Assembly (NCBI GenBank): GCA_015069195.1
Contig: SVJA01000001.1
Location: forward strand, 78,148 to 142,147
Length of the DNA: 64,000 nucleotides
DNA from: Oscillospiraceae bacterium
Lineage (GTDB): Bacteria > Bacillota > Clostridia > UBA1212
Direction of reading: 5' to 3'
The position numbers and the translations under genes were made by a program. Below, piece after piece: positions 798-28,987 of this stretch. The stretch's first letter is position 1; every line of letters starts with the position of its first letter. The notes below the pieces were generated by a model, which was not told where the DNA came from, searched no databases, and saw nothing but the letters and a program-made list of their open reading frames with translations.

Positions 798-1763
798 TCA
801 ATTTGCACTGTTATCTTTAAAACAATTTTCGTCAACATTCACAGCGCCGGGGCAATTTATCGCCTGACCGCCTGCACTTACGGTTGTCATACCGCCCGAA
901 ATTGTAACCGTCTGTAACGATTGGAGCGCATCATCTCCGGCAGTTACATTTACAGTGCCGCCCTCGATACAGAGATATCCCTTCTCAGGTTCAAGATCAT
1001 TTTCTACTTTAACACCGTCATCCTGCGACTCTACATTTACATTTCCGGAATTTACGGCAAGGCTGTCTTTACCCTTTATACCGTTGTTCACCGCAGTAAC
1101 ATTTATTGTACCGGATACAATTTTGAGATCATTTGTAGTAGCTATACCGTTGTTATAATTACCTGTTACGTTAAGAGTGCCCGAACCGTTAAATGTAAGG
1201 TCATCCTTACTGTAAATACACGAATTATGCTCTGCAGCACCTACTGCGTATGTATAGTTTTTTCCGTCAACGAAACTATTTACCGTACCTTTTGCAAGAG
1301 TTACAGATACCTTATCAGCACTTGTCACATAAAGCGCAGAAGAATCTTTACAGGTAACATCGGCACCGTTTAAAACGATATGAACTTTCTCTGTTTTCTC
1401 TACGGAAACTTTTATCTGTCCGTCGCTGAGTGAACCGCTCAGGACGTAAGTACCCTCACGATTTATTGTAAGATCACTTCCGTCAGCCTTCGCACCTAAA
1501 CCGGTAATTTTTATATTATTGTCAGCAAGGGTTATAAAAGTAGATTTTGAATCCCACATAGCATTCAGATCAAATTCGGAATACTTATCAGAAGCAGCGG
1601 CAACGCTTTCCTCTCCGTATACTCCGCCTGTCATTGTCTGACCGTCACCGCTCTGTGCACCGCCAGTATCACCTGTACCGACAGGCTCTCCGCAACCGGC
1701 AAACATACAGACACATATAAGTGCAATAAGCATTGCAACAGATTTTATAAAAATTTTTTTCAT
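798..1763 (-). CDS. Cthe_2159-type carbohydrate-binding domain lipoprotein
   Basis: A 321-residue exported lipoprotein. The first 25 residues are a type II signal peptide ending in the lipobox FAGC, so the mature protein should be anchored to the outer face of the membrane. Residues about 75-310 consist of short beta-strand repeats rich in Asn, Gly, Thr and Val (INREGTYVLSG, then units such as GGTVNVTAGDDALQS), the pattern of the right-handed beta-helix family PF14262 (Cthe_2159), described as acidic-polysaccharide binding. It is short for the family, with only one set of coils. GGAGGT precedes the ATG at good spacing. The partial PyrF-like gene follows 30 bases downstream on the same strand. 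The bound sugar cannot be told from sequence. Confidence 0.8.
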   Translation of the reverse strand: MKKIFIKSVAMLIALICVCMFAGCGEPVGTGDTGGAQSGDGQTMTGGVYGEESVAAASDKYSEFDLNAMWDSKSTFITLADNNIKITGLGAKADGSDLTINREGTYVLSGSLSDGQIKVSVEKTEKVHIVLNGADVTCKDSSALYVTSADKVSVTLAKGTVNSFVDGKNYTYAVGAAEHNSCIYSKDDLTFNGSGTLNVTGNYNNGIATTNDLKIVSGTINVTAVNNGIKGKDSLAVNSGNVNVESQDDGVKVENDLEPEKGYLCIEGGTVNVTAGDDALQSLQTVTISGGMTTVSAGGQAINCPGAVNVDENCFKDNSAN

Positions 1764-2920: not shown

Positions 2921-4366
2921 TTAAGAAACAAATATCTTTGTAACGTTCGGATCCGGTGTGTATGTCATCTCACTCAAATCGAGAATCTTTTTACCGTTTA
3001 CATAAAGTCCGTCAATAAAGAAGTCGTACGGCACAGCATCAGCAGATCTTGAGCCTATGTGTATGCACGGCATCGGCAATCCGTCATCCAAATATACGTT
3101 TATGTTTTTATATATTATGCCATGAGTGATTCCGAATGTATTTATTTCTTCTTCAGTTGCATTAGGCAATATAAACTTAAAGTTGTCAGCAAAGATAAGA
3201 TACGGCATACCGACACGACCGTGTGCTTCGTATTTCATTTCATCAGATTCCTGATAAACTTCCTGCATGCATTTGTTTGAATACTCTACATTTATGTTTT
3301 CAAATCTGATATGCGAAATTTCCGCTACTCCGCCATTCTGTATATCTATACATGATGCCGAACTGTGTACGAGTTCACAATTTCTGAATTCTATGTTCGA
3401 AAATTCCGTACAATATGTTTCGATACCGATTTCGATATTTCTTCCCCAACCACACCACATTACGCAATTGTCTACCAAAATATGACCTACAGGCAAATGT
3501 CTGTAATCAGGAATACCTTTTATCGTAATAACATCATCAAACGCTCTGATAAAAGAGTTTTTAACAACTACATCTTTACTGTTGCAAATATCTACGCCGT
3601 CAGTATTATAACGCCACTGACCTATGATTTTGACACCATCAATATGTACAAGATTACAACCGAAAAGGCTAATTACCCATATCGCAGAGTTACGCAATAT
3701 GACACCTTCGATAGATATATCGCTGCAGTCATAGAATTTTATATTTCCCTTTGTGCTGGAAAGATAACAGTGCTCTATAAGACGTTCCTCATAAGTTCCG
3801 TCAATGATACCCTGACCGAAAATCTTTATATCATGTACGCCTTCTCCCATAAACGAACCGTTTACGACAGCTTCTTTGTCGACATATACTCTGTCGCCGC
3901 TTTTAAGTCTTACAAGACCGGGATAGTGTACACCCGGACCGTAATAATATGTAGCACTTCCCGCATCCGGATAATCGTTCGGTTTGTTTACAAATATATG
4001 AAGAGCCTGATGTTCGTCATCCAGTTCGAGAACATACTGACCGCACTCTGTTATCTCCATAACAACCGTAGTACCCTCGGAACTGACGGATACATTTTTA
4101 GACAACGGTCTTACAATAGCTTTCTCAAAAGACTTCTGACACTCTATAGTCAATGTCACTTTTTCGTCAGCCTCAAAGCTGATGAAAGCAGCCAACTCAG
4201 ATTGATCGATCGATCTCTGTTTTCCGGGCCATGCTCTGTTAAAAGGCATAGCAGAAACTCTGGCAGGATGCACATCGCAATCAATACCGTTAACTTTTAC
4301 TTTATATAAATCAGTAATATCCCTTGAACCATCAGGTGCTGCGGGACTTTTTGCCAAACGTATCAT
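2921..4366 (-). CDS. GH28-like right-handed beta-helix glycosidase
   Basis: A 481-residue protein. An N-terminal beta-sandwich of about 140 residues is followed by a parallel beta-helix of the polygalacturonase type. The GH28 motifs NTDG (Asn254-Gly257, followed by VDI) and the paired Asp (277-278, FDDVITIKG) are present, but the family GHG motif is replaced by WGRNIEIGIET. The N-terminal layout recalls GH49 dextranases of the same clan. No signal peptide is seen, so it probably acts inside the cell on short oligosaccharides. The reading frame extends up to a TTG at 4402, but the ATG at 4366 has GGGGGT about ten bases upstream and is preferred. Substrate is unknown; uronic-acid oligomers are a guess. 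Confidence 0.75.
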   Translation of the reverse strand: MIRLAKSPAAPDGSRDITDLYKVKVNGIDCDVHPARVSAMPFNRAWPGKQRSIDQSELAAFISFEADEKVTLTIECQKSFEKAIVRPLSKNVSVSSEGTTVVMEITECGQYVLELDDEHQALHIFVNKPNDYPDAGSATYYYGPGVHYPGLVRLKSGDRVYVDKEAVVNGSFMGEGVHDIKIFGQGIIDGTYEERLIEHCYLSSTKGNIKFYDCSDISIEGVILRNSAIWVISLFGCNLVHIDGVKIIGQWRYNTDGVDICNSKDVVVKNSFIRAFDDVITIKGIPDYRHLPVGHILVDNCVMWCGWGRNIEIGIETYCTEFSNIEFRNCELVHSSASCIDIQNGGVAEISHIRFENINVEYSNKCMQEVYQESDEMKYEAHGRVGMPYLIFADNFKFILPNATEEEINTFGITHGIIYKNINVYLDDGLPMPCIHIGSRSADAVPYDFFIDGLYVNGKKILDLSEMTYTPDPNVTKIFVS

Positions 4367-4440
4367 TTTAAAATTTACCCCCGAAGGATTTTTATACCAC
4401 AAACGTGGTTATTATAAAGCTTATATATTTTTTTGCAACA

Positions 4441-14070: not shown

Positions 14071-14090
14071 AACAATTCTCCTATCAAAAA

Positions 14091-14117
14091 TCCCTCATCT
14101 TTATCTTCGATGAGGGA
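14091..14117 (-). terminator. Terminator of the CotH-VTC-DUF4956 operon
   Basis: A 9-bp stem (14091-14099 with 14109-14117) with a 9-base loop, followed directly on the minus strand by five U residues. It closes the operon 30 bases after the DUF4956 stop. Confidence 0.85.
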
Positions 14118-14147
14118 CTATAAAAACATAACACAACTCTATTATAT

Positions 14148-14822
14148 TCAAGCTGCGGTAATTTCTCCATCATGGCTAAGCAATGATGCCATTGTTACTC
14201 CATCAAGCTTCATTACTTCACTAAGCAATTCGCTCTCATCGGCAACATTAACTTCTACTATTATGTCCAAAGTAGTACGAGTAAGATTTTTTGATTTAAT
14301 CTTATAGCTCTTACTAAAGCTTTTTACTACATCTAATATTTTCTTATCACTATCAAGAGAAGTACTGTTCACTACCAGAATCATAGAAGCCTTCTTAACA
14401 GGATACATCTGCAGAAAAACAACAATAACAGCCATTGTTAACGACAATACAACAGCTACCATAGATAGTCCTGCACCGCAAATTATACCCAAGCTAATAG
14501 CCCAATATAAGAAAACCAAATCTAACGGATCTTTAACAGCAGTTCTAAAACGTACTATGGAAAGTGCGCCCACCATTCCGAGTGAAAGTACAATGTTTGA
14601 TTGTATCGCGAGTATTATAGCTGCTGTTATAACAGCCATAGCAACCAATGATATATTAAAAGTCTTTGAATAAAACGTTTTTCTCGTTATAACCCTATAA
14701 ATAAAAAATACAAAAAGTGACAAAAACACAGTTACACATAATCTAGCCAAAATTGTTTTAGCGTCTACATGACTCATATAACCACTAATAAAAGAATTGC
14801 TAAAAATATCTTTAAAACTCAT
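14148..14822 (-). CDS. DUF4956 membrane protein
   Basis: A 224-residue protein with about four membrane segments (roughly residues 25-140) and a cytoplasmic C-terminal domain of about 75 residues with an ACT-like beta-alpha-beta pattern. The signature GALSIVRFRTAVKDPLD between membrane segments identifies DUF4956; this segment and the layout resemble MgtC proteins (compare the MgtC gene at 28301). Its ATG overlaps the stop of the VTC gene in an ATGA, with GGAGGG upstream, so it is translationally coupled. Function unknown; as the last gene of CotH-VTC-DUF4956 it could be a membrane partner or a channel for the VTC product, which is inference. Confidence 0.85.
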   Translation of the reverse strand: MSFKDIFSNSFISGYMSHVDAKTILARLCVTVFLSLFVFFIYRVITRKTFYSKTFNISLVAMAVITAAIILAIQSNIVLSLGMVGALSIVRFRTAVKDPLDLVFLYWAISLGIICGAGLSMVAVVLSLTMAVIVVFLQMYPVKKASMILVVNSTSLDSDKKILDVVKSFSKSYKIKSKNLTRTTLDIIVEVNVADESELLSEVMKLDGVTMASLLSHDGEITAA

Positions 14823-15517
14823 AATAAACCCTCCATAGAAAATTTCCTGCACAAATAATATTTAGAAAAAGCACTTCTCTGCAAACCATCAATCTGCAGT
14901 ATATCTTTTATAAAATCAGGCAACAATTCATCATATTTCACTTCCAACAGATGTTGACCTGATTGCAGAACAGGCCGTGTAGATATATTTTCATCAAAGA
15001 AGTGCGCAACTTCATTAGAAGACCTGATATTCATATCTAATGTAATTCTGACATTTCCGACACGATATACATAGGGAGTTCTATCATATTCGACAATAAC
15101 AACCGGTTTGAATAACTGAGACTTTTGTAAAACATAAAACTTACGAAATAATGGATGTTTCTCTCCTATGTTATCGACACTTCCACCATCCAAGATGGCA
15201 CGATACTCATCCTCTTTAAGAAGGCAAGAACTTTTATAGGTCTTACCTCGTTCTTTTCTTTTACACTCTAGAACAATTCGATCAGATTTTGCATTATAAA
15301 TTCTGATTCGAAACTTCTCCCTAGGGTCAATACCATTCTCGTTTTCATAATAGCAACGATTATCTAAGTTGTCAAAATACATACTTCGTATACAGTACTG
15401 TCCGTTTTCCGTATGTTTATCTAGAGGAACAATATATTTTAATCGATTTTTGATTTCTTCAATTTGGCGAATGTTACACAGATATTTCCATTCATAACGG
15501 TATTTTAAATCCTTCAT
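14819..15517 (-). CDS. VTC domain polyphosphate polymerase-like protein
   Basis: A 232-residue single-domain tunnel enzyme of the VTC family (PF09359), related to yeast Vtc4, which makes polyphosphate from ATP. Likely tunnel residues are kept: Lys11 (EWKYL), Arg70 and Arg72 (KFRIRIYN), Glu84 followed by KRK (LECKRK), Arg181 and Glu192/Lys194 (LLEVKY). No SPX domain and no membrane segment are present, so membrane recruitment must come from a partner, most simply the coupled DUF4956 protein. It overlaps the end of the CotH gene by 26 bases and has GGGAGA before the ATG. Polymerase activity in bacterial homologues is inferred from fold and conserved residues. Confidence 0.85.
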   Translation of the reverse strand: MKDLKYRYEWKYLCNIRQIEEIKNRLKYIVPLDKHTENGQYCIRSMYFDNLDNRCYYENENGIDPREKFRIRIYNAKSDRIVLECKRKERGKTYKSSCLLKEDEYRAILDGGSVDNIGEKHPLFRKFYVLQKSQLFKPVVIVEYDRTPYVYRVGNVRITLDMNIRSSNEVAHFFDENISTRPVLQSGQHLLEVKYDELLPDFIKDILQIDGLQRSAFSKYYLCRKFSMEGLL

Positions 15518-17528
15518 TTTTTCTTTTCTCCCGTATTTTTTTCAATGCGACAAATATATCTTTACCAATACAAAACGAAATCACAAAAAATACTATTGTA
15601 AATCCCACAATTGTATACTTATTTTTATTTGCCAACATTGATTTCAATTTTTGTACAAATCCTACATCAGCACTATTCGAAACAGAGGAAGAAGAAAAAT
15701 CATCTTCAATTTTTTTCCACGAGGCAATATACGAGATATTGTCTTCCACAACATTTGTCAAATCAAGTTTCTCACCGCTAACGCTATTAACAAATCCAAG
15801 AAACTCATATCCATCAAACTTAAATATAGGAACATTATCAATGCATTTACCTTTTTCAACAGAGACAAAAATTCTTTCATCTGGCATAGGATCCCCTGCG
15901 CTAAAAGTAACCCTCACAAAATCTTTATTTTGAAGCCACGCATCATCCAAAAATGCAATTCTCTCATTTAAAAATCTCGATAAATATTCTATATGTTCAT
16001 GGAAGGAATCATAGTGATTACCCGACGCATAAGGTTGAACGCCTTCCCATCTTTTGCTATTCATAGAATAAGACTTTTGTATTAATTTTTCATATTCCAG
16101 CAATTTTTCATTAGCATATTTTACTAATAAATTTCTAAAAGAATCCTTATATTCTTTTTTCAGCAATTCCTTAAAAATTTCATTATTATATAATGTTTTG
16201 TAATAACCAAACATATTCGAGTAAAAAGCCTTTGGATTTGCATCTTTTCCTAAATACAAAGAACCCATAGAAAAATCAAAATCCCAAATAGGACCGGCAT
16301 AAACTTTATCACTTACTTTATCAGAATCTTTATAAAAATAAAGACTATATTGATCAGTATTCGCAAAACATTCTTGTATCAAGTAATACTTCACCCAAGA
16401 ATCCACATCTATGTAATCATTATAATCAGTTGTTGCTAGTTTTTCTTTAATCTCATACATTAAATTACTTATGTAGACAATTTGACCTTGTGTCGCATAT
16501 CGTGGAAATTTAACTGAAAACGCAGTATTATCAGGCAATATGAAGTAACTATTATCAGATTTAGCTCGCCCTATCGAATCAATTTCGAGTAAATACCCAC
16601 CGGTTATATCAGTTGGTTCTGATGGAATATCATAATACTTCATTTCTATTCCCGAAACATTGGAAATACTATTAGAATATTCTTTTAAAGAGTAATAATT
16701 AGCCGATTGGGTAACAGATTCCAAATTTGTAATATTTACACACGATGGCGAAATATCAATATTTTCTGTCAACAAATACAATCCATAGTAAACATCGTCT
16801 ATATACAGATCAACGAACTCCGAATCAATCGCCGCCGTTAATCCGATTTCTTTAGAAGCATCATAAACCATCTTATTTCGAAGATTAGACTCATCACACG
16901 CATTGGCCAAAAGACAATATTTACTCGAATACCCCATATTGAATAATTCCACATTTTGTTCAAATTCAATCACATATGGTTTTTTCTTCTCCCACCAAGT
17001 AGAATTACCTCTACTGCGAAAGCTCGAAAAAAAGCCAACATACTCCACTTCAGTATCGGACTTTATCAAAGTACATATACCGGACTTTTCCGTTTCCTTA
17101 TCCTTATGAATATCCTCAATGCTACCGTTAGTTAATCTCAAAGACATTGTAGCAATATTCTCTGATTTCAAAATAACAAGAGTTTCATCAGCAACAGTCA
17201 CCCCAAACTCCGTACATATTTTTAATGAATATTCCTTATCTGCAGATAAGGATAAGCAATTATTGCTTATCGTATATTCACAATCATCTATATACACCCT
17301 ATATCCCTGAGTACTTTTTATGTTTATATTTTCCATTTTGGCGTACGAAGGAAGAAATACATAATATTTGTCATTATTGTGAAAAAGGGATATCGATTCT
17401 GTAACATTTTGATTACTTACTACAAATCTAACAGAGTCTAAGCATCTCAAATTTTGCATATGCACGCAGCCAATTATTATAACAACAAAACACAATATAA
17501 AAAAAATAATTCCGACGCATTTTTTCAT
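15492..17528 (-). CDS. CotH kinase family membrane protein
   Basis: A 678-residue protein: N-terminal membrane segment or signal (residues 5-22), an Ig-like region, a CotH kinase domain (about residues 130-500) with RSRGNSTWWEKKKPY, a YYGLYLLTENID segment and the metal-binding WDFDFSMG, then an InlB/Listeria-Bacteroides-type repeat (about 555-610), and a C-terminal membrane segment (about 635-655) with a basic tail. The kinase domain should therefore face outward. CotH proteins phosphorylate spore-coat proteins in Bacillus. First gene of an overlapping operon with VTC and DUF4956. Its DNA is AT-richer than its surroundings. GAGGTT lies nine bases before the ATG. Confidence 0.88.
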   Translation of the reverse strand: MKKCVGIIFFILCFVVIIIGCVHMQNLRCLDSVRFVVSNQNVTESISLFHNNDKYYVFLPSYAKMENINIKSTQGYRVYIDDCEYTISNNCLSLSADKEYSLKICTEFGVTVADETLVILKSENIATMSLRLTNGSIEDIHKDKETEKSGICTLIKSDTEVEYVGFFSSFRSRGNSTWWEKKKPYVIEFEQNVELFNMGYSSKYCLLANACDESNLRNKMVYDASKEIGLTAAIDSEFVDLYIDDVYYGLYLLTENIDISPSCVNITNLESVTQSANYYSLKEYSNSISNVSGIEMKYYDIPSEPTDITGGYLLEIDSIGRAKSDNSYFILPDNTAFSVKFPRYATQGQIVYISNLMYEIKEKLATTDYNDYIDVDSWVKYYLIQECFANTDQYSLYFYKDSDKVSDKVYAGPIWDFDFSMGSLYLGKDANPKAFYSNMFGYYKTLYNNEIFKELLKKEYKDSFRNLLVKYANEKLLEYEKLIQKSYSMNSKRWEGVQPYASGNHYDSFHEHIEYLSRFLNERIAFLDDAWLQNKDFVRVTFSAGDPMPDERIFVSVEKGKCIDNVPIFKFDGYEFLGFVNSVSGEKLDLTNVVEDNISYIASWKKIEDDFSSSSVSNSADVGFVQKLKSMLANKNKYTIVGFTIVFFVISFCIGKDIFVALKKIREKRKNEGFKIPL

Positions 17529-17736: not shown

Positions 17737-18018
17737 TTACATAGCATAGAGTCTGGTCTGTCTCGGCTCTACGACCAATCGGATAGCAGTTCTCTCCTCA
17801 CCATCAATAAAAATGTCGGTAAATGCAGGTATGCATACAAGCTCAATGCCTGCAGGGGCAAGGAAACCTCTTGAAATAGCAACAGCCTTTACAGCCTGAT
17901 TTAATGCTCCGGCTCCTATAGCCTGAATTTCCGCACCGCCTGATTCTCTGACAACGCCCGCAAGCGCGCCTGCAACTGAATTTGGGTTTGATCTTGCTGA
18001 AACTTTTAAAACATCCAT
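17737..18018 (-). CDS. spoVS: Stage V sporulation protein S
   Basis: A 93-residue Alba-like protein. The start MDVLKVSARSNPNSVAGALAGVVRE and the end FTDIFIDGEERTAIRLVVEP match SpoVS, a small protein needed for progress past stage V of sporulation in Bacillus and often regulated by the alternative sigma factor H. ATG 18018 has GGAGGT nine bases upstream; the frame extends to 18057 without another good start. It lies about 190 bases downstream of ymdB, and ymdB-spoVS adjacency is conserved in Bacillota. Confidence 0.96.
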   Translation of the reverse strand: MDVLKVSARSNPNSVAGALAGVVRESGGAEIQAIGAGALNQAVKAVAISRGFLAPAGIELVCIPAFTDIFIDGEERTAIRLVVEPRQTRLYAM

Positions 18019-18125
18019 CTTTTTGTAACCTCCAAAAGTTTTAATTTCAATGACCAAAGTCTACCACCGGCTACCCGTTTTTTCATCAATTTATGCATTA
18101 TTTCCCGACCGTACATTATGCACAA

Positions 18126-28300: not shown

Positions 28301-28987
28301 ATGGACACTTTGAAAGAAATTATTACATATTTGAACGAAATCCATATTGTAACAGTCGCTCTCCGTCTTTTTCTTGCCATTATCATAGGCGGCGTCATAG
28401 GAAGTGAAAGAGGAAGACACGGCAGTGCAGCAGGACTTCGTACACATATTCTGGTGTGCTTAGGTGCTGCCTTGACATCTATTACAAGCATGTATGTATC
28501 TGAAATCCTCGGTGTTCAGGGAGATGTTTCCCGTATGCCGGCGCAGGTTATATCCGGTATCGGTTTCCTCGGCGCAGGTATGATTATTATTAAAAACAGC
28601 AATATGATTACCGGACTTACGACCGCGGCAGGTATGTGGGCAACGGCTGCTATCGGAGTGGCACTCGGTTACGGTTTTTACAGCGGTGCAATCATCGCCA
28701 TGATTTGTTGCGTAGGCACCGCGGCATTCCTTACAAAACTCGAGCGTAAGAGAAAAATGTCCGTACATATTTACCTTGAAATTTCAGACCTCAAAAAAGC
28801 CGGTGACATTTGCGACAAAATTAAAAACATTTACGGTTCCGAAATTCTTCTTGAAACTACTGCCCCGAAAAGTACAATAACAGGAAATATCGGTGTCAGA
28901 ATTACAGCAAACAGAATTTATGATTACCCGGCTATGCGAGACAATCTCGAAACCATAGACGGTATAGAATTTGTAATACCCGAATAA
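28301..28987 (+). CDS. MgtC/SapB family membrane protein
   Basis: A 228-residue protein with about four or five membrane segments and the family signature IGSERGRHGSAAGLRTHILVCLGAALTSI, followed by VISGIGFLGAGMI. A cytoplasmic domain of about 70 residues with an ACT-like pattern closes the protein. MgtC proteins are linked to magnesium homeostasis and modulation of F-type ATPase in some pathogens; here the role is not known. It is transcribed alone, with its own promoter and terminator. Confidence 0.9.
   Translation: MDTLKEIITYLNEIHIVTVALRLFLAIIIGGVIGSERGRHGSAAGLRTHILVCLGAALTSITSMYVSEILGVQGDVSRMPAQVISGIGFLGAGMIIIKNSNMITGLTTAAGMWATAAIGVALGYGFYSGAIIAMICCVGTAAFLTKLERKRKMSVHIYLEISDLKKAGDICDKIKNIYGSEILLETTAPKSTITGNIGVRITANRIYDYPAMRDNLETIDGIEFVIPE

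Follow-up and report, generated by a model that had tools for sequence, protein, structure and literature searches.

Three overlapping genes, encoding a CotH-family kinase, a VTC-domain protein and a DUF4956 protein, lie in a stretch of 64,000 nucleotides of contig SVJA01000001.1 from an Oscillospiraceae bacterium (the whole stretch is referred to as the window). Do they form a system, and what would such a system do? The association of the three genes across genomes is far beyond chance, and the VTC and DUF4956 genes are inherited jointly. The trio is probably a system modifying the cell surface, even where the genes for Pel-type sugar polymers are absent. The features concerned are:

15492–17528, minus strand: CotH-family kinase gene, open reading frame (ORF) of 678 aa, PF08757 with E 6.3e-35
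14819–15517, minus strand: VTC-domain gene, ORF of 232 aa, PF09359 with E 1.5e-42
14148–14822, minus strand: DUF4956 gene, from an internal ATG, 224 aa, PF16316 with E 1.8e-10
14083–14119, minus strand: intrinsic terminator 3' of DUF4956, an 11-bp stem and a T run

All three Pfam matches are above the curated cut-offs. The CotH and VTC genes share 26 bases (15492–15517), and VTC and DUF4956 share four (14819–14822), counted from the internal ATG; the alternative start of the DUF4956 ORF is a GTG, giving 14148–14852. The terminator stem (14089–14119), followed by the T run, has an RNA folding energy of −17.3 kcal/mol (z −4.0), and none of 200 shuffles was equally stable. A simple terminator scan of the window does not list this hairpin, because its loop is 9 and the scan allows at most 8. 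The common strand, the overlaps and the shared hairpin agree with the earlier note on this DNA, which had read the three genes as one operon. Upstream of CotH, on the same strand, is a SpoVS gene (17737–18057), and a G+C-rich inverted repeat is seen by eye between the two.

Recurrence and inheritance

The phylum sample comprised 199 genomes, and the co-occurrence tests ignore the relatedness of genomes. The counts come from the coordinates of the family search, after removal of the one sub-cut-off CotH match (G168) and of the second fragments of split CotH matches. VTC and DUF4956 are each matched 34 times, in the identical 27 of the 199 genomes. A DUF4956 gene is situated within 3 kb and on the same strand for 33 of the 34 VTC genes, the last pair being split over contig ends. 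CotH is above the cut-off in 27 genomes, 24 of these holding VTC, and it lies within 3 kb of 21 of the 34 VTC genes, in a variable gene order. Hence the three-gene unit of the earlier note stands in part: VTC and DUF4956 are a tight pair, but CotH is an optional, looser partner.

The second set consists of 43 VTC loci from a separate scan of species contigs, with counts from all six-frame ORFs. It covers the Bacillota, Pseudomonadota including SAR11, Nitrospinota, Deltaproteobacteria and Fermentibacterota. DUF4956 is found within 4 kb at 41 of these loci, the exceptions (L066 and L088) being near contig ends, and CotH within 4 kb at 31. Where both flanks extend for 4 kb or more, CotH is present at 21 of 25 loci. 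Corynebacterium glutamicum, which served as a control, likewise has members of the CotH, VTC and DUF4956 families. The divergence of VTC follows that of DUF4956 (r 0.91, 43 loci) more closely than that of CotH (r 0.52, 19 loci). The linkage that the earlier note had named as the mark of a system thus recurs across phyla, and the homologues are not commonly scattered. Since CotH adjoins VTC for only one of nine VTC copies in the family of the source organism, one might think of chance neighbours without joint function. We give this practically no weight, as the arrangement recurs across phyla, and the identical genome distribution of VTC and DUF4956 already refutes it for that pair.

PPK1 is present in 9 of the 27 VTC genomes versus 20 of the 172 without VTC (Fisher p 0.007), which weakens the idea of VTC as a plain stand-in for PPK1. 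In the family of the source organism, PPK1 was found in none of nine genomes.

The VTC proteins fall into two lineages. In a tree of 45 VTCs, made by a quick method, 31 were labelled by the analyst as CotH-linked (among them L079, with CotH 3.1 kb away) and 12 as not linked, two being unlabelled; L118 forms a long branch. The CotH-linked proteins cluster, with four label changes against 10.7 in shuffles and none of 500 shuffles as low. The clade of the window VTC has CotH at 21 of its 22 members, the nearest being a metagenome-assembled genome of a gut Eubacterium. The same source genome contains a second VTC–DUF4956 pair on another contig (C3, locus L008, 2855–4301), with 28% (VTC) and 23% (DUF4956) identity to the window copies and in a clade that is mostly CotH-free. 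This is the ancestral-looking type, common to the family: the seven other family genomes with VTC have one VTC–DUF4956 pair each, of the same type, and the eighth, 69% complete, has no VTC match. The G+C content of the trio is 31–34%, compared with 38.5–45% in 17 other window genes. Taken together, the low G+C, the absence of the CotH-linked type from relatives and the placement in the tree suggest that the operon has been acquired.

The three proteins

The VTC protein has no hydrophobic segment by hydropathy and is predicted to be soluble. By Pfam, all of its 232 aa are VTC domain, with neither SPX nor a membrane part. Its profile matches the structure of yeast Vtc4 (3g3q, E 1.3e-13), and K11, R70, R72, K86, K95, R146, E192 and K219 are invariant across 45 VTC sequences. 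The first three align to Vtc4 in the printed alignment, with the offset counted by hand; we take their counterparts to be K200, R264 and R266 of Vtc4. The basic positions of the polyphosphate tunnel and the catalytic Glu thus appear to be kept, as the earlier note had claimed together with the lack of SPX and membrane parts, and the protein is a probable polyphosphate-making enzyme. Still, several activities are known from the superfamily of the VTC fold. VTC could be another tunnel metalloenzyme instead of a polymerase, for example a triphosphatase or a sensor that binds polyphosphate, with CotH as an ordinary, co-regulated outside kinase using ATP. The Streptococcus intermedius VTC deletion, for which the available text reports no phenotype, could be counted for this. 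However, the presumed Vtc4 tunnel positions are invariant in all 45 sequences and the profile match is Vtc4 itself; we regard such a role as rather improbable.

The DUF4956 protein is hydrophobic, by hydropathy, in its N-terminal two thirds. Its predicted model (pLDDT 80.6, from 29 sequences) has helices at 21–45, 52–73, 77–95, 99–116 and 120–139, followed by an ACT-like domain. The tail resembles the tail of Mycobacterium tuberculosis MgtC (2lqj, Z 9.8, 3.5 Å over 82 residues), with other ferredoxin-like folds tied, and it also matches ACT domains; no solved membrane protein matched over its full length in the fold search, the tail being the part that was tested. G85, R91, R93 and G112 are invariant in 46 of 46 DUF4956 sequences, and both arginines are in or next to the membrane. 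The window also contains a true MgtC gene (28301–28987, plus strand, PF02308 with E 1.9e-37). A profile of VTC-linked DUF4956 proteins from which MgtC had been left out finds this MgtC with E 7.7e-5, the only listed match outside DUF4956, against a background set containing some ORFs twice. The value from a previous profile, which had absorbed MgtC during iteration (2e-43), was not used. The Pfam search of the window protein yields DUF4956 alone, without an MgtC match above the cut-off, and the best match to PF02308 among the relatives examined, 2.5e-4, is below the cut-off. DUF4956 is therefore, as judged by the profile link and the model, a distant relative of MgtC with an ACT-like tail, which agrees with the MgtC-like signature noticed earlier, but by the Pfam cut-off it is not a member of the MgtC family. 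PMC12345266 likewise describes the S. intermedius homologue as combining an ACT domain with an MgtC-type membrane part.

In CotH, hydropathy places a signal or anchor at the N-terminus (1–30) and a hydrophobic anchor at the C-terminus (636–663), with the kinase domain at 171–527. These ends fit the outside kinase with a C-terminal anchor that had been proposed earlier. Among solved structures, the profile of 24 CotH proteins clearly matches only spore coat protein H (5jd9, E 1.4e-49). The candidate catalytic aspartates D392 and D416 are in conserved columns and align with the N-x-D and W-D positions of 5jd9. Their spacing is near that of D228 and D251 of Bacillus subtilis CotH (given as 23 apart in both, the equation of positions being our own), where changing these residues inactivates the kinase, according to PMC7821199. 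The domain and both catalytic Asp positions thus seem to be retained, and both VTC and CotH look active by sequence. The window protein has the kinase fold, by profile, and the two Asp positions in common with the spore-coat CotH. However, copies of the spore type are open frames of 365–373 aa away from VTC, whereas the window protein, with 678 aa, has an extra N-terminal region and a membrane anchor and adjoins VTC. Hence it is not assigned to the spore-coat type.

The trio with and without Pel genes

Published work describes the trio as an accessory set of the Pel cluster in Gram-positive bacteria (PMC7112168, PMC12345266). From the available parts of these papers, the accessory genes of the S. 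intermedius cluster are SIR_1594-SIR_1593-SIR_1592, and the Gram-positive set is CotH-PPP-DUF4956-DUF4832. The earlier note had been aware of no characterised system of this make-up; this has to be corrected, as the trio is already described there, with deletion phenotypes for two of the genes. The S. intermedius set has, as the window does, a CotH kinase, a polyphosphate-polymerase-like protein and an MgtC-type membrane protein with ACT side by side. The window operon differs in having no adjoining pel genes, no PelG in the genome and no DUF4832 partner. Further, SIR_1594 is described with an FN3 domain, and the window CotH has the C-terminal anchor instead.

According to the 2025 paper (PMC12345266), the analyses made there did not detect synteny of the trio beyond the Pel locus. 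The loci considered here contradict this statement: the trio occurs without Pel. No pel match was found in the window, and pel genes flank only one of the 43 species-contig loci and one of 32 loci in the phylum sample. PelF and PelG are situated beside the trio at L064, together with DUF2194 and DUF4832, and at L119. In the genome-wide check, which covered the source family, PelG was found in none of nine genomes, including the source genome (95.75% complete). Given the published neighbourhood and these two loci, the trio could be thought to serve Pel production and to be a remnant of a pel cluster in the window, but the absence of PelG from the family and the rarity of pel genes at both sets of loci largely refute this, and we consider it very improbable. 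No paper treating the trio as a pel-free system was found in the open literature searched. The pel-free loci that may be named against the published statement belong to the Bacillota, Pseudomonadota, Nitrospinota and Fermentibacterota. They shift the question from regulation of Pel to a general surface-phosphate system, with DUF4956 the constant partner of VTC in the sampled genomes.

A related cluster is NELoc-2 of Clostridium perfringens, with two VTC genes and one CotH gene according to the available parts of PMC2879425 and PMC11677781. It differs from the window in the second VTC gene and in the presence of a glycosyltransferase and a polysaccharide deacetylase. Proteins of 222–226 aa beside VTC in NELoc-2 are listed as tubulin/FtsZ in the part of PMC2879425 available; by size and place, they are probably misnamed DUF4956 membrane proteins.

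Possible function and other neighbours

We tentatively read the operon, at somewhat short of even chances, as a horizontally moving cell-surface phosphate module, in which a VTC–DUF4956 core makes and exports polyphosphate and CotH is the outside effector. Cytosolic VTC would polymerise phosphate from ATP, while DUF4956, with its MgtC-like part and ACT-like sensor domain, would anchor VTC in a complex and pass polyphosphate, or gate its passage, through the membrane. CotH outside the membrane might then phosphorylate a surface protein or polysaccharide, or attach the exported chain to it. Formation of the VTC–DUF4956 complex, synthesis and export of the polymer and the CotH substrate are what we infer here. 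The make-up agrees with the delivery of a phosphate polymer to the surface: the polymerase is soluble, the membrane partner constant, and the outside component, a kinase or a carbohydrate-binding protein, optional. We also count for it the joint distribution of VTC and DUF4956, the tunnel invariants, the kept DUF4956 arginines, the Asp positions and proximity of CotH, the surface-type partners (Cthe_2159 and a porin-like barrel, see below), the envelope phenotype in S. intermedius, as far as the available text describes it, and the analogy to yeast VTC. The yeast complex has the same catalytic domain and basic tunnel positions. Its subunits carry their own membrane parts, whereas the window VTC has none and is paired with an MgtC-like protein unrelated to them. 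In yeast, VTC synthesises polyphosphate on the cytosolic side, and the chain is believed to cross the membrane through the channel of the complex itself (PMC10657179). VTC–DUF4956 would thus be a split counterpart, with a different membrane protein doing the passage.

Several observations weigh against this reading. To our knowledge, MgtC proteins are regulators and not polyphosphate channels. CotH is absent beside many VTC–DUF4956 pairs; none was found in the 18 kb read around the second pair on contig C3, and none adjoins the pairs of the seven other family genomes. Since PPK1 is found in 9 of the 27 VTC genomes, polyphosphate as such need not depend on VTC. The main problem is that for deletion of the VTC homologue in S. 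intermedius no change in aggregation or Pel is reported in the available text (PMC12345266). A second polymer source could explain it, or the model is wrong. By the same account, aggregation in one medium falls to less than half when the CotH or the DUF4956 homologue is deleted, and Pel is more abundant in the DUF4956-homologue mutant and less abundant in the CotH-homologue mutant.

These opposite changes in Pel look like regulation, and the strongest alternative is regulatory: VTC polyphosphate would be used inside, and DUF4956, instead of being a channel, would act as a regulator in the manner of MgtC. Its ACT-like domain would sense phosphate or nucleotide status and thereby adjust CotH or the output of exopolysaccharide. 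The MgtC similarity and the ACT-like domain are consistent with it. Further, a response regulator and a histidine kinase are both found within 4 kb of 14 of 32 VTC genes in the phylum sample, versus one each in the remaining 308 kb of flanks, and the pair looks like a dedicated two-component system. On the other hand, no VTC without its partner was found (34 versus 34), a pattern more like that of a physical partner than that of an optional regulator, and two-component genes are present neither in the 43-locus set at E 1e-15 nor in the window operon. We consider a regulatory role possible but on the unlikely side.

Within the export reading, exported polyphosphate might itself be the phosphoryl donor of CotH, which would (poly)phosphorylate surface proteins or polysaccharide where outside ATP is scarce. 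We think this improbable. If true, the operon would encode an extracellular kinase system that powers itself, and the question of the phosphate source of CotH-type kinases would have a possible answer; for the spore coat, the ATP source of CotH is called unanswered in the available part of PMC7821199. If export holds, the eukaryotic polyphosphate synthase-translocator has a bacterial counterpart in split form, and it becomes possible to test where outside-acting kinases obtain their phosphate.

The loci with the two-component pair are L103, L105, L107–L109, L111, L112, L114–L117 and L120–L122, and the pair is mostly divergent or directly upstream. Cthe_2159 carbohydrate-binding proteins are found within 4 kb of 8 of 32 VTC genes and nowhere further out in the flanks; in some loci such a protein occupies the place of CotH. 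Since Cthe_2159, too, was not found in the 43-locus set at E 1e-15, both couplings are lineage-bound. The window has a Cthe_2159 gene (798–1763, minus strand, PF14262 with E 9.3e-74) at a distance of about 12 kb from the trio; after it comes a gene for a family-28 glycoside hydrolase (2921–4402).

In ten Fermentibacterota loci (L077:4520–5590 and nine relatives in L082–L084, L086, L087, L090–L092 and L094) a gene for a secreted porin-like barrel is situated between CotH and VTC. Foldseek puts OprO, a polyphosphate-selective porin, first (E 5.7e-6), with a poor model (pLDDT 57), and in VIA-align 2 OprO (Z 14.0, rank 25) is level with many porins, so an OprO-type identity was not adopted. No porin family was found in Pfam or PDB sequence searches, one of the ten members reaching OMP_b-brl at 0.006. 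The gene is kept only as a predicted porin-like barrel.

In the Gram-negative loci L065, L067, L068, L069, L071 and L088 (Proteobacteria and Nitrospina), and as a fragment in L066, CotH is always directly preceded by a gene of a family whose proteins have about 340 aa and a hydrophobic segment at the N-terminus; the family has no Pfam match and no clear PDB match. The CotH of L065, the sole Rhodospirillales CotH scanned, has a beta-helix region, and sugar genes are seen around L055, L062, L069 and L105.

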